A DNA stretch of 37,120 nucleotides from assembly GCA_023954635.1 (NCBI GenBank), contig JAGSHI010000024.1:1-37120 (forward strand), read 5' to 3'. This document shows positions 3,194 through 35,765 of the stretch, in pieces (the first letter of the stretch is position 1; each line of letters begins with the position of its first letter). This DNA is from Bacteriovoracaceae bacterium. GTDB taxonomy: Bacteria > Bdellovibrionota > Bacteriovoracia > Bacteriovoracales > Bacteriovoracaceae. Under the pieces are notes generated by a model. That model saw only the letters and a list, made by a program, of their open reading frames with translations, did not search any database and was not told the origin of the DNA. Both the position numbers and the translations under genes were made by a program.

Positions 3194-5305
3194 ATGTTAA
3201 AAATAAAATTAGATGAAAATAATATTGTAATTCTAACTATTGATTGTGAAACGAAACCAATGAATGTCATCGACAAAGAGTTTGTTGAACTCTTTCATCA
3301 AAAGATTGAAGAGATTACTTCTGATGAAAAAAACCAAGGGCTTATTCTCACCTCAGCGAGAGATGAATTCGTTGCTGGTGGCGATCTTGAAATGCTTAGA
3401 TCAATAAATACAGCTGAAGATTGTGTCAAAGTTACTTCTCTACTCCACAAAGCACTTCGAAAAATTGAAACTTGGGGAAAGCCAGCCGTGGCGGCCTTAA
3501 CGGGTACAACACTGGGCGGTGGTTATGAACTTGCTCTTGGCTGCCATCATAGAATTTGTATAAATAAGCCAAAAGCAAAGATCGGACTCCCTGAAGTAAC
3601 ACTTGGACTTCTTCCAGGAGGTGGCGGAACTCAAAGGCTACCTAGAATGATTGGACTTCAAAGTTCAATTTTATACTTAACAACAGGTAAGCAATTAAAC
3701 CCAGAAAAAGCTTTAAAAGCTGGACTTATAAATGATTTAGTAGACTCAGAAGATGAACTCATTCAAAAGTCAGTCGACTTTATTAAATCAAATCCTGAAA
3801 TAAAACAGCCATGGGATGAGAAGAAGTTCAAACTTCCAGGTGGAGAAGTCCAGTCTCCAAAAGGTTATCAGATAATTCCAGCATCAACGGCCATGATGAA
3901 TGAAAAAACACATGGAAATTATCTCGCTCCAAAAAATATTCTCTGTGCAGTTTATGAAGGCTGCCAAGTCCCAATAGATCAGGCCCTTGAGATCGAACTT
4001 CGCTACTTCACTGAACTCGTTTTAAACCCATCGACTAAAAACATGATTAGAACTCTTTTCTATGGAATAAATGAGTGCAATAAAGGACAAGCACGACCTA
4101 AAGATGCCCCTAAAAAGGCAATCAATAAAGTTGGAATCTTAGGTGCAGGAATGATGGGAAGTGGAATTGCTTTTTCAACTGCCATGGCCGGAATTCCTTG
4201 TGTCATGAAAGATATTAGTGAAGAAACTCTAGAGAGAGGAAAAGCCTATTCTTCAAATGTTTTAGATAAAATGATTGAGCGTGGCAGATGTACTCCAGAG
4301 AAAAAAGAAAAAGTTCTCTCCCTCATTTCCACAACAACCGAACCAAAAGAGATGGAAGGTTGTGACCTCGTTATTGAAGCAGTTATTGAAGATAGAGCTC
4401 TAAAGGCCCGAGTAACGAAAGAAAGTGAAGATGTAATGCCTAGTGATGGAATCTTTGCTTCCAACACTTCGACATTACCAATTACAGGCCTAGCGAAAGA
4501 GAGCCAAAGACCTAAACAATTCATAGGACTCCATTTCTTTTCTCCTGTAGATAAAATGCCACTTGTAGAAATTATTATGGGAGAAGAAACTGGTGATGAA
4601 GCACTTGCGATGTGTGTCGATTATGTTCGCGCCATTAAGAAGACTCCAATTGTTGTAAATGACGGAAGAGGTTTTTATACTTCTAGAGTTTTTACAACAT
4701 ATGTTTCAGAAGGTATTAATCTCGTCACTGAAGGTGTTAACCCTGCGCTCATTGAAAACGCAGGAAAGATGTGTGGAATGCCAGTGGGTCCTTTGGCCGT
4801 AGCTGATGAGGTCTCAATTGATCTTATCTATCATATTGTAAAACAAACTGTTGAAGATGTAGGTTTAGATGCAGTCGACAAGAAAACATTAGAACTCTCC
4901 ACCAAGTTCGTAGAGGAACTCGGCCGTCTCGGGAGAAAAGCTGGAAAAGGGTTTTATGAATACCCAGAAAGTGGAAAGAAGCATATTTCTCCAGAACTTG
5001 AGAAACTCTATCCCATTTCAAAAGAACAACCCAGCCTAGAAGAAGTAAAAGATCGATTGCTCTATATTCAATCTATCGAAACACTTAGGTGCTTAGAAGA
5101 AAATATTCTAACAACATCTAGAGATGCTGATGTTGGGTCTATTATGGGTTGGGGCTTTCCTGCCTGGGCAGGAGGTTCAATTGGCTTCGTTGAATTGACA
5201 GGTGTCAAAAACTTTAAAGAAAGATGTCTTGAACTTGAAAAGCTTTATGGAAAAAGATTTTCACCTCCAAGTATCCTCGATAAAAAAGAGAGTTTCTACA
5301 GTTGA
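3194..5305 (+). CDS. fadJ: Multifunctional enoyl-CoA hydratase / 3-hydroxyacyl-CoA dehydrogenase (FadJ/FadB type)
   Basis: 703-residue fusion enzyme for the two middle steps of beta-oxidation. Residues 1-190 form the crotonase domain, with the two catalytic glutamates expected in GGGYELALG (E112) and LPEVTLGLLPGGGG (E134). From about 312 a Rossmann domain begins with the NAD motif GAGMMG (317-322), followed by the dehydrogenase domain with catalytic His447 in GLHFFSPVDKMPLVEII and a C-terminal helical domain. I start at the ATG at 3194, where the crotonase fold begins; an in-frame ATG at 3143 would overlap the thiolase and adds no family sequence. Its stop overlaps the next start (TTGA). FadB and FadJ cannot be separated by eye. 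Confidence 0.93.
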   Translation: MLKIKLDENNIVILTIDCETKPMNVIDKEFVELFHQKIEEITSDEKNQGLILTSARDEFVAGGDLEMLRSINTAEDCVKVTSLLHKALRKIETWGKPAVAALTGTTLGGGYELALGCHHRICINKPKAKIGLPEVTLGLLPGGGGTQRLPRMIGLQSSILYLTTGKQLNPEKALKAGLINDLVDSEDELIQKSVDFIKSNPEIKQPWDEKKFKLPGGEVQSPKGYQIIPASTAMMNEKTHGNYLAPKNILCAVYEGCQVPIDQALEIELRYFTELVLNPSTKNMIRTLFYGINECNKGQARPKDAPKKAINKVGILGAGMMGSGIAFSTAMAGIPCVMKDISEETLERGKAYSSNVLDKMIERGRCTPEKKEKVLSLISTTTEPKEMEGCDLVIEAVIEDRALKARVTKESEDVMPSDGIFASNTSTLPITGLAKESQRPKQFIGLHFFSPVDKMPLVEIIMGEETGDEALAMCVDYVRAIKKTPIVVNDGRGFYTSRVFTTYVSEGINLVTEGVNPALIENAGKMCGMPVGPLAVADEVSIDLIYHIVKQTVEDVGLDAVDKKTLELSTKFVEELGRLGRKAGKGFYEYPESGKKHISPELEKLYPISKEQPSLEEVKDRLLYIQSIETLRCLEENILTTSRDADVGSIMGWGFPAWAGGSIGFVELTGVKNFKERCLELEKLYGKRFSPPSILDKKESFYS

Positions 5306-6288
5306 TTTTAGATAAGGCACTTGATCATATTAATGTACTAGATCTGACTCGATTACTACCAGGTCCATTATGTACTCGCTACCTATCAGATATGGGCGCA
5401 AAAGTTACAAAGGTAGAAGACAAAGATAAGGGGGATTATGCTCGCTATTTTCCCCCTCTTGATAAAGATGGAGTAAGCCTTCTTTACAAGGACCTAAATA
5501 GCAATAAAACTATTATAAACTTAGATCTCAAAGACGATAATGACTTAAAAAAGTTTGAAGAGTTAGTTCAAAGTTTTGATGTCATTGTTGAAGGCTTTCG
5601 CCCGGGAGTTATGGACTCCCTAAACTTGTCATTTGAAAAGCTCAAAAAGCTAAACCCTAAAATTATTCTCTGTTCAATTACAGGTTATGGCCAAAGTGAC
5701 TCATTAAAAACCAAGGCCGGTCATGACATAAATTACATGGGTCTATCTGGTTTATTATCAACACTAGAAACTAATCAAAAAATTCCAACTCCAGGGTTCC
5801 ATATGGCAGATATAGCAGGCGGAACCCTAATGGCCTTAACAAGTATCACTTCAGCTCTTCATCAAGTAGCTAAGACAAATAAAGGTCTCCACCTCGATAT
5901 ATCTATGACTCACGGATTAAACTCTTTCCTACCGGCCATTCAAAATCAGTTAAAAACAGGTGCTCCAGGAATTATTACAGGAGAAGCTGCTTGTTATAAT
6001 ACATATCGTACCAAAGATGAAAAATTCATGGCCCTTGGAGCTGTCGAGAAAAAGTTCTGGGTCGAATTCTGTAAGGCCATTGAAAAACCTGACTGGGTCG
6101 ATAGACACCCAGGAGTTGGGTCAGAATACTCTCCCCTTTCCAATGATATTCAAACTATTGTTTCAACAAAATCCAGAGAGGAGTGGACAACTCTTTTCAA
6201 AGAGGTTGATGCTTGCTTTACACCTGTACTTGAGCCTCTAGAGTCTTATTCAACATCAAATAAAAACTTCTCTTTTCCAATAAAATAA
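5302..6288 (+). CDS. Class III CoA-transferase (CaiB/BaiF, AMACR-like), C-terminally short
   Basis: 328-residue protein resembling alpha-methylacyl-CoA racemase. Conserved points are VLDLTRLLPGPLCTRYLSDMGA at the N-terminus, VEGFRPGVMD, AGHDINYMGLSG with the catalytic His141, and MADIAGG with catalytic Asp170. Racemases of this group interconvert 2R and 2S methyl-branched acyl-CoAs, letting branched fatty acids enter beta-oxidation, which suits the operon. The start is a TTG overlapping the fadJ stop by 4 nt. Oddly, the protein ends soon after the DACFTPVLEPLE motif and lacks the usual tail of some 40-60 residues with the P-G-x-H-T stretch (relatives are about 360-400 residues). It may be a naturally short form or a truncated gene; the catalytic pair is intact. 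Confidence 0.85.
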   Translation: MILDKALDHINVLDLTRLLPGPLCTRYLSDMGAKVTKVEDKDKGDYARYFPPLDKDGVSLLYKDLNSNKTIINLDLKDDNDLKKFEELVQSFDVIVEGFRPGVMDSLNLSFEKLKKLNPKIILCSITGYGQSDSLKTKAGHDINYMGLSGLLSTLETNQKIPTPGFHMADIAGGTLMALTSITSALHQVAKTNKGLHLDISMTHGLNSFLPAIQNQLKTGAPGIITGEAACYNTYRTKDEKFMALGAVEKKFWVEFCKAIEKPDWVDRHPGVGSEYSPLSNDIQTIVSTKSREEWTTLFKEVDACFTPVLEPLESYSTSNKNFSFPIK

Positions 6289-6290
6289 CA

Positions 6291-6386
6291 AGTACTTACT
6301 AGACTGAAGAAATTACACAGCCAGGTGGCGAATGACCTTTCCCATGGGATAGTCCAGCTATATTTAGCCATCTGGGAGTAAGCACT
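6291..6386 (+). ncRNA. Structured 5' leader (candidate cis-regulatory RNA) of the caspase-like gene
   Basis: The whole gap between the CoA-transferase stop and the next ATG can fold on itself. An outer stem pairs 6291-6300 with 6377-6386 (9 of 10 pairs). An inner stem pairs 6321-6329 with 6367-6375 (9 of 9, one G-U). Only G6376 separates the two stems on the 3' side, while a 20-nt bulge (6301-6320) separates them on the 5' side. The Shine-Dalgarno GGGAG (6374-6378) is buried in the paired strand. A second CCAG at 6354-6357 can compete with CCAG 6321-6324 for CTGG 6372-6375, giving an alternative hairpin with TATT loop. It matches no riboswitch class I recognise. Regulation is inferred. Confidence 0.45.
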
Positions 6387-6387
6387 T

Positions 6388-7725
6388 ATGAAATCATTAT
6401 TTTTCGTTTTCCTATTTATTATTTCTTCTCAAGCTTTTGGGGCCAATAATAAATACTATGGAAATCAATCTGTAGAAGCAATTCTCACTTTTAGAACTAA
6501 GATTTTATTAAATGACTATCAGGCCTACTCAAACTCAGAGATTAGAGAGCAAATTGATTTTCAAATACAACACCTCATGGGAACTTTTCAGGCAGAGACT
6601 TTCCTTGAAGAATTTCCGTATCCAGGAGTACTTGGTGAAACTTATAAAATTAAAAATATAAAGAAAAAAGTAACTACAGAAGGACTTCAAGTAACTTATT
6701 CGTTCGAGGGAAAAGTTGCGTGGAGCAAAAAAGCCTTTAACGGTGGAAGAAAAACAAGAGCTCTTCCTATAAAGTTACCTCTTAACCCAAATAGAATTTA
6801 TGACCAAAGTCTGGTTAACGGGTTCAACCCTTGTACTGATGAACACTACAACTCTGAAGGTGATTTCTGGTATTTCTGGGACCCAGACAAAGAAGGTTGT
6901 CCACTTACTTCAAATTTCAAGGATGTTCTAAGAATTAAAGGAAAACTTAAAAAGCTACCGAATACTCGTTCAACTTACCCTGAGTACAATAAGCTTTATG
7001 CAGATAATGGAAATAAGGATAATGTCGATATTCATCTTTATATCGGTTATATCGATGAAGAAAATCTAAATCTTTCCAAACCAGATAAAGATGACCATGC
7101 TTTTTATGCTATGGAGTTCGTAGAAGAAGAACTTCAGAACCAAGGCTATGAGTTAACAAAAAAGAAAGATGCTTTCAGAGAATTCAAAACAAAAGTTGGA
7201 AAAGGTATTAATTTTCTTCGACTATATGAAAAGAAAATGAAAACAGCGACTGGGAAACAAGTAAATCTCAGAGTTAAGATCTTACTTTCTGATACTGGTA
7301 TTAATTCAAAAGATAATACTTTTCATAATCACATAACTAAAGGTCTAGAAGAAGCAGACGTACTCATTTACGATGGTCACAGTGGACTTGGAGGAAACTT
7401 AAACCTCGATTACCTACCGGCTATTGACTTCAATAAAAACAAGTATCAAATTTTCTTTTTTAATGGCTGTAGCTCATACCCATATTTTAATGGAATGTTT
7501 TTTGATGCAAAAGGTGGAACAAAAAATTTAGAAGTTGTGACCTCTGGACTTCCTACCTACTCTGATACTGCAGGTGAAAATATGATTGGCTTTATCGATG
7601 GTTTTATTAGAGGAAGAGCTTGGAGTTATCAAACAATAATGAGTGACCTTGAGGCCTCTAATGGCCACAATGGTACTTACCTTACAGGTGTAAATGGAGA
7701 TGAGGATAATACTTTCCGTCCCTAA
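6388..7725 (+). CDS. Exported protein with caspase-like (clan CD) His/Cys layout
   Basis: 445-residue protein with a clear Sec signal peptide (cleavage near SQAFG-AN, residue 18-19). I do not recognise a named family. The C-terminal third has a hydrophobic strand then VLIYDGHSGLGG with His331, and about 30 residues later a second strand IFFFNGCSSY with Cys361. A strand-His-Gly followed by a strand-Cys is the arrangement of caspase-like clan CD peptidases (caspase, gingipain, clostripain). A further strand LEVVTSGLP follows. Cys149 and Cys171 could form a disulfide. The ATG is preceded by GGGAG inside a paired leader, and a terminator follows, so the gene probably stands as its own unit. Peptidase activity is inference from motif geometry only. 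Confidence 0.75.
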   Translation: MKSLFFVFLFIISSQAFGANNKYYGNQSVEAILTFRTKILLNDYQAYSNSEIREQIDFQIQHLMGTFQAETFLEEFPYPGVLGETYKIKNIKKKVTTEGLQVTYSFEGKVAWSKKAFNGGRKTRALPIKLPLNPNRIYDQSLVNGFNPCTDEHYNSEGDFWYFWDPDKEGCPLTSNFKDVLRIKGKLKKLPNTRSTYPEYNKLYADNGNKDNVDIHLYIGYIDEENLNLSKPDKDDHAFYAMEFVEEELQNQGYELTKKKDAFREFKTKVGKGINFLRLYEKKMKTATGKQVNLRVKILLSDTGINSKDNTFHNHITKGLEEADVLIYDGHSGLGGNLNLDYLPAIDFNKNKYQIFFFNGCSSYPYFNGMFFDAKGGTKNLEVVTSGLPTYSDTAGENMIGFIDGFIRGRAWSYQTIMSDLEASNGHNGTYLTGVNGDEDNTFRP

Positions 7726-34996: not shown

Positions 34997-35725
34997 TTAT
35001 TGGAGGTTACTCTCCCAATCTTGAACTTCATATCTTTGTTCACGTGTACAATACTTTACTCTTATATTTCCTCCAACCTCTGGAGAATGAATTGATGAAC
35101 TAAACCGACTTCGACAAAATGAAATATAAACGTAATTTCCGTCTAATTCCTTTAATCTATGGGGCTCTAAGTAAACGCTCCCTTGTGATTCACTTACATA
35201 AGGATGAAGATTAAAACTCTTTCCACGTGTATCCTTAACCGTAATTTCTAAGTTTTCTTTTTTTCCAGAATAATTACGAAGTTTCCATTTTAAAGTTCCT
35301 CCAGAGCTTTTACTTAATTGACTAACAAGAAAAAAATCAACACCAGAGGGCATATCCAATATGTTTTCGAAAACCTGCTCATCCTCGTTACTGTATCGAA
35401 CTCTAAATGTTTCGGGAAAATCATGTGTCGATCGTGATGAAGAGTATTTATACTGTATGACTTTAAAAACGTCATCATCACTACTCATAGGATGGCCATC
35501 AACGCTCAATGAACTCTTATCTGTTAGCCAAACCTGAGATCCAAACTGACCTCCAACACTTAAGGTCGCCGTTATCTTCAAATCACCACTCTCTTCAGAA
35601 TAAAGACCAGAATAAGAAGTAAATATTTCACTTTGATCAACTTGATCAGAATCTATTTGACCACACCCAACCATCAACCATGATTGTAAAATAAGGAAAA
35701 GACATAAAATTATTTTGTTTCTCAT
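34997..35725 (-). CDS. Lipoprotein of unknown function
   Basis: 242 residues from the ATG at 35725, preceded by AAAGGGG. The signal peptide ends with the lipobox LMVGC (Cys21), after which residues Gly-Gln do not give the Asp+2 inner-membrane signal, so outer-membrane localisation is likely if E. coli rules apply. The mature part is predicted beta-rich with strands such as KITATLSVGGQFGSQVWL, FRVRYSNEDEQVFENIL, SGGTLKWKLRNYSG and NLEITVKDTRG. No known domain is recognised. It is a single-gene unit: an exact terminator follows, and a 14-bp palindrome lies 41-54 nt upstream of the start. Confidence 0.8.
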   Translation of the reverse strand: MRNKIILCLFLILQSWLMVGCGQIDSDQVDQSEIFTSYSGLYSEESGDLKITATLSVGGQFGSQVWLTDKSSLSVDGHPMSSDDDVFKVIQYKYSSSRSTHDFPETFRVRYSNEDEQVFENILDMPSGVDFFLVSQLSKSSGGTLKWKLRNYSGKKENLEITVKDTRGKSFNLHPYVSESQGSVYLEPHRLKELDGNYVYISFCRSRFSSSIHSPEVGGNIRVKYCTREQRYEVQDWESNLQ

Positions 35726-35765
35726 TTCAAACCCCTTTAATTTAGGCAAACATAACTTGCTGCCT

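Follow-up and report, generated by a model that had tools for sequence, protein, structure and literature searches.

In the mgtC-mgtB intergenic region of Salmonella, translation of a small upstream ORF, mgtQ, opens a stem that holds the ribosome site of mgtB (PMC8092293). A structured RNA of a different kind is merRNA of Bdellovibrio, a c-di-GMP riboswitch RNA that is abundant and stands alone (PMC3627812). The locus described here, from a member of the Bacteriovoracaceae, has a short gap between two genes, and the RNA of this gap is predicted to cover the ribosome site of the downstream gene with two nested stems.

Gene order and the intergenic gap

The DNA analysed belongs to contig JAGSHI010000024.1 (assembly GCA_023954635.1) of Bacteriovoracaceae bacterium, and the whole stretch of 37,120 nt is referred to below as the window. 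It contains, in this order, a thiolase/fadA-like gene (1983), a fadJ-like gene (3143), a CaiB-type gene (5302), the gene starting at 6388 (the 6388 gene) and a gene for a LysM protein (7888). The stop codon TAA of the CaiB-type gene (6286-6288) opens a gap of 99 nt, 6289-6387, which ends at the ATG at 6388. A promoter scan of the plus strand from 6244 to 6388 gave no sigma-70-type promoter-like match. From this result for the gap we infer co-transcription, in which case a single polycistronic message would carry the fadA-like, fadJ-like, CaiB-type and 6388 genes, with the gap as an intergenic segment. The CaiB-type gene has a TTG start that overlaps the stop codon of the preceding fadJ-like gene, and this TTG overlap is also present in a congener. 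Two other genomes of the genus were compared, G002 (L038, the congener with the TTG overlap) and G001 (L091). The features of the locus are as follows.

5302-6288, plus strand: CaiB-type (family III) CoA-transferase gene (Pfam PF02515, E 9.8e-75); order the same in L038 and L091
6290-6300, plus strand: 5' arm of the outer stem in the MFE fold (6290-6293 and 6295-6300 paired, 6294 mismatched)
6321-6329, plus strand: 5' arm of the inner stem, CCAGGTGGC, from the sequence and the MFE fold
6332-6352, plus strand: possible upstream ORF MTFPMG, probably due to chance, with AGGTGG 3 nt upstream of its ATG and within the inner 5' arm
6354-6357, plus strand: CCAG, the proposed competitor (alternative fold 7.2 kcal/mol worse; absent from L038)
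6367-6375, plus strand: 3' arm of the inner stem, GCCATCTGG, from the sequence and the MFE fold
6374-6378, plus strand: GGGAG, the likely ribosome-binding site (9 nt from the ATG at 6388; mean pairing probability 0.78)
6377-6387, plus strand: 3' arm of the outer stem in the MFE fold (6377-6382 and 6384-6387 paired)
6388-7725, plus strand: gene with the covered start, encoding a 445-aa protein with an apparent signal peptide and without a Pfam or NCBIfam family

The predicted fold of the gap

Re-reading of the sequence shows that the coordinates given in the first-pass annotation for the stems, GGGAG, CCAG and TATATT (6359-6364, inside the gap) are all correct. The two nested stems that it described, separated on the 3' side by one unpaired base, are also found, this base being 6376. 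In the inner stem all 9 of 9 positions pair, one as G-U, and the outer stem (6291-6300 with 6377-6386) has 9 of 10, with a mismatch at 6294/6383; the MFE fold adds the pair 6290/6387. GGGAG spans the junction of the two stems. The MFE of the gap is -27.6 kcal/mol with both stems included, and the fold covers nearly all of the 99 nt, in line with the claim that the whole gap is used. Dinucleotide shuffles of the gap have a mean of -21.0 kcal/mol (z -2.1), and 6 of 200 fold equally well. Of 1500 gap shuffles, 3 have nested stems with 9/9 and 9/10 pairs that extend into the final 25 nt. None of 1000 shuffles matches the complementarity seen between these 25 nt and the upstream part, and 0.25% of shuffles match the pairing probability of the start region. 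As a prediction, the two-stem structure is real.

Leaders from the window and from 20 other parts of its genome (21 stretches in total, about 298 kb) served as background. This set comprises 147 leaders with a gap of at least 50 nt, next to ORFs that were called simply (longest, leftmost start) and of which some starts will be wrong. The studied leader ranks 13th of 147 by folding energy and 18th by folding z-score, and nested stems comparable to its own are present in 4 of the 147, the studied leader counted. A z-score of -2.97, lower than that of the studied leader, is found for the leader of a minus-strand gene at 34997-35749. For the pairing of the 12 bases at the ribosome-site position the studied leader comes first of 147, with a mean of 0.91 against a median of 0.53. 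Within the genome, an ordinary stability is combined with an unusual placement on the ribosome site; the pairing potential, this placement and the rank within the genome are established. A GGAG-like 4-mer occurs at about 43% of the sampled starts, and the organism therefore plausibly uses such ribosome sites. The hiding of the ribosome site claimed in the first-pass annotation is thus supported as a prediction, with GGGAG 0.78 paired, the start region at the top of the 147 and a differently built predicted stem over the start in L038.

It had further been proposed that the leader can refold, with CCAG at 6354-6357 competing for CTGG. The energies speak against this switch: the forced CCAG/CTGG fold reaches -20.4 kcal/mol compared with -27.6 kcal/mol. 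In this fold the outer stem remains, and CTGG, which takes in two bases of GGGAG, is not released, so that the ribosome site stays paired. CCAG is absent in the congener. An alternative pairing of ATGG with CCAT gives -18.0 kcal/mol. Among the suboptimal folds there is no well-populated alternative, and the lowest-energy ones shown retain both stems. Deletion of 6289-6300, which roughly mimics a ribosome at the CaiB stop, leaves the inner stem in place and GGGAG 0.63 paired, and in an RNA begun at 6330 GGGAG is still 0.93 paired, in a weaker fold.

Comparison with congeners and other genera

In L038 the whole gene order is kept, the orthologue of the 6388 gene is 76% identical and the gap measures 97 nt versus 99 nt. 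The two leaders are identical at 51 of about 95 aligned positions (54%), which exceeds the identity of 0.36-0.45 at fourfold-degenerate sites of the neighbouring genes; the gap is therefore probably under some constraint. The blocks common to both leaders, TGAAnAAnTTACA, GCCA and CATGGGATA, are located in the 5' and middle parts of the gap. Five of the nine pairs of the window's inner stem are broken in L038, and of the ten pairs of its outer stem four are broken and four gapped. In alignment A3, 73.5% of the cells are paired, mostly contributed by the window itself, and there are two double changes between window and L038, a number that 123 of 500 shuffles also attain. For this pair of leaders RNAalifold yields only 7 weak pairs (-3.15 kcal/mol), and a covariance model built from the window alone with the proposed structure places the L038 leader among noise (7.0 bits, E 7). 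No base pair has real covariation support in this comparison, because there are only two leaders to compare and their stem registers differ.

L038 has a predicted stem of its own over the start region, GGCC.CUCGCA with UGCGGGGGCU, the sequence of which is unlike that of the window stem. As much complementarity between the last 25 nt and the remainder of its gap is found in 0.8% of shuffles (p about 0.008), start-region pairing by partition function gives p about 0.08 (8% of shuffles), and the overall stability of the leader equals that of its shuffles (z -0.1). L038 is without a clear Shine-Dalgarno sequence to hide (GGGGG), and this weakens the evidence from its start stem. The L038 test is independent of the choice of gap made in the first-pass annotation and provides the best evidence that the covering of the start may exceed chance.

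The congener L091 has the fadJ-like, CaiB-type and LysM genes adjacent and is without the 6388 gene (L091 1343-1462), a clean case of presence and absence within the genus. The gap of L091 contains no detectable leader. Following the CaiB stop, the window (6286-6312) and L091 (1435-1464) resemble each other over about 20 bases, with the pattern CAAG(C)TACTTA....ACTGAA (p about 0.01). In view of this similarity, the region of the outer 5' arm may be part of the CaiB end rather than of the leader.

Orthologues of the 6388 gene in other genera are 41-51% identical and have different neighbourhoods and variable folds, and their upstream DNA does not align with the window leader. A shared motif across genera, TGAAKAWWTTTAC, was recognised by eye in five leaders and was rejected, as the background is too high and other leaders are without it.

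Rfam 15 gave nothing at gathering score in the window and, at E 10, only a chance snoRNA match (E 9.9). A DNA search found no second copy of the leader in its own genome and none in 59 relatives. The first-pass annotation had also suggested a covariance search over the leaders of homologues. A covariance model of the two leaders, run against 129 genomes of the order, returned the leaders of the window and L038 and two weak matches, and no family was found beyond these two species. The weak matches, L124 and L125 in other genera, score E 0.004 and 0.05 per genome (129 genomes searched); they have unrelated genes downstream or, in the case of L124, overlap an ORF start, and were judged to be chance. 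By these searches, the leader is a member of no described RNA family and lacks the conservation features that would define a new riboswitch class. Non-conserved pairing in homologous leaders, named in the first-pass annotation as a refuting result, is largely what the L038 pairs, the other genera and the covariance searches gave.

The product of the 6388 gene

Neither Pfam nor NCBIfam has a family for the 445-aa product, and its relatives constitute an unnamed family. They are mainly found in MAGs named as Bdellovibrionota-type (Bacteriovoracaceae, Bdellovibrionales, Oligoflexia) and Elusimicrobia. The motifs GHSGLGG and NGCSS are invariant among the relatives, and the CTDEHYNSEGDFWYFWDP block is strongly conserved. 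Across 14 relatives neither His331 nor Cys361 varies, and three of the family members touch Peptidase_C25, at E 0.05 or worse; together these observations weakly hint at a clan CD (caspase/gingipain-like) peptidase. The predicted fold has a pLDDT of 81, and a PDB fold search with the predicted structure gave no meaningful match (TM-scores about 0.2). A genome of the same family, G010 (C57, C49, C186 and C101), contains several paralogues of the protein (7 matches).

A proposed static hairpin and its alternatives

The explanation favoured here, with moderate confidence, is a static, lineage-specific hairpin that would damp translation of the 6388 gene, which follows a fatty-acid-oxidation cluster and would share its message with CaiB. 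The RNA of the gap would fold into one long imperfect hairpin over GGGAG and, because GGGAG would be covered, ribosomes would start on the 6388 gene only rarely. Beyond thermal breathing, regulation would perhaps come only from ribosomes that terminate on CaiB and would get no further than the outer 5' arm. The hairpin would be specific to the lineage, the congener covering its start region with a different predicted stem and other genera being without a counterpart. The low translation rate and the lack of a ligand or of further regulation are likewise what we infer. The main rival of the hairpin is chance complementarity in a short non-coding gap, without a regulatory role, the first-pass annotation having picked the best-looking gap of many. 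This is a possibility to be taken seriously, if a somewhat doubtful one. It is consistent with the ranks for energy and z-score (13 and 18 of 147), with comparable nested stems in four of these leaders and with pairing that is out of register in L038 and absent elsewhere; the outer 5' arm, moreover, resembles the post-CaiB sequence of a congener that lacks the 6388 gene, and may thus have another reason. Chance would not, however, lead one to expect the first place among 147 for start-site pairing, or an independent stem at the same place in L038 (p 0.008).

The conservation of the leader above fourfold sites could also reflect a regulated switch, riboswitch-like or a translational operator, in which the leader would open or close in response to a ligand, small RNA or protein and the blocks TGAAnAAnTTACA, GCCA and CATGGGATA could form a binding core. 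This is unlikely, as the leader is single-copy in its own genome, matches nothing in Rfam, has no family beyond two species in the 129 genomes of the order and shows no well-populated alternative fold, while the downstream gene offers no hint of a ligand. Very unlikely, too, is a young genus-restricted cis-regulatory RNA, in which single-stranded TGAAnAAnTTACA and CATGGGATA would bind a ligand, small RNA or protein and the sequence of the occluding stem would turn over fast. If the conserved blocks in the 5' and middle gap instead served the 6388 gene as signals in the DNA, such as a promoter or an operator, the RNA fold would be incidental. Two sequences in the gap, TCCCATGGGA and AAGTACTT, are indeed perfect palindromes, but neither is kept in L038, the gap has no sigma-70-type promoter match and the search for a shared motif across genera did not rise above background. 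The DNA operator offered as an alternative in the first-pass annotation finds no support: the promoter scan gave no match in the gap and the TCCCATGGGA palindrome is not conserved. DNA signals are likewise an unlikely explanation. Translation of the MTFPMG ORF might open the stem, its AGGTGG being the inner 5' arm, as mgtQ does for mgtB. Although its ATG follows AGGTGG at 3 nt and the mechanism exists in Salmonella (PMC8092293), this is extremely improbable: ATG, stop and ribosome site are all not conserved in L038, the aligned leaders carry no coding signal (96 of 500 column permutations score as high), and if 6318-6352 is kept unpaired, GGGAG takes 6354-6357 as its new partner and is 0.87 paired. 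A coding reading of the gap itself, based on an HSQ..HGI similarity in one frame, was rejected, being not above column permutations and having no shared start codon.

Comparison with known systems

If the static hairpin works as predicted, it would set a low level of translation for a secreted protein behind a fatty-acid-oxidation cluster, which is useful for annotating this lineage and adds no new principle. The main lesson is that a two-stem leader that is convincing in one genome can fail a comparative test. Like merRNA, the leader would be a structured RNA in the wider Bdellovibrio group, but it matches no Rfam family, and merRNA is stand-alone. It resembles the mgtC-mgtB region with mgtQ (PMC8092293) in having the downstream ribosome site in a predicted stem and a tiny ORF between the genes. 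In contrast to mgtQ, the tiny ORF of the window is not conserved, and freeing it leaves GGGAG unexposed in the predicted fold. The Shine-Dalgarno-sequestering intergenic stem-loops of operons differ from the window in that its pairs are not conserved, no coupling element has been identified and the structure is known here from prediction, yet both have a gap between genes on the same strand and a ribosome site placed in the 3' arm of the stem.
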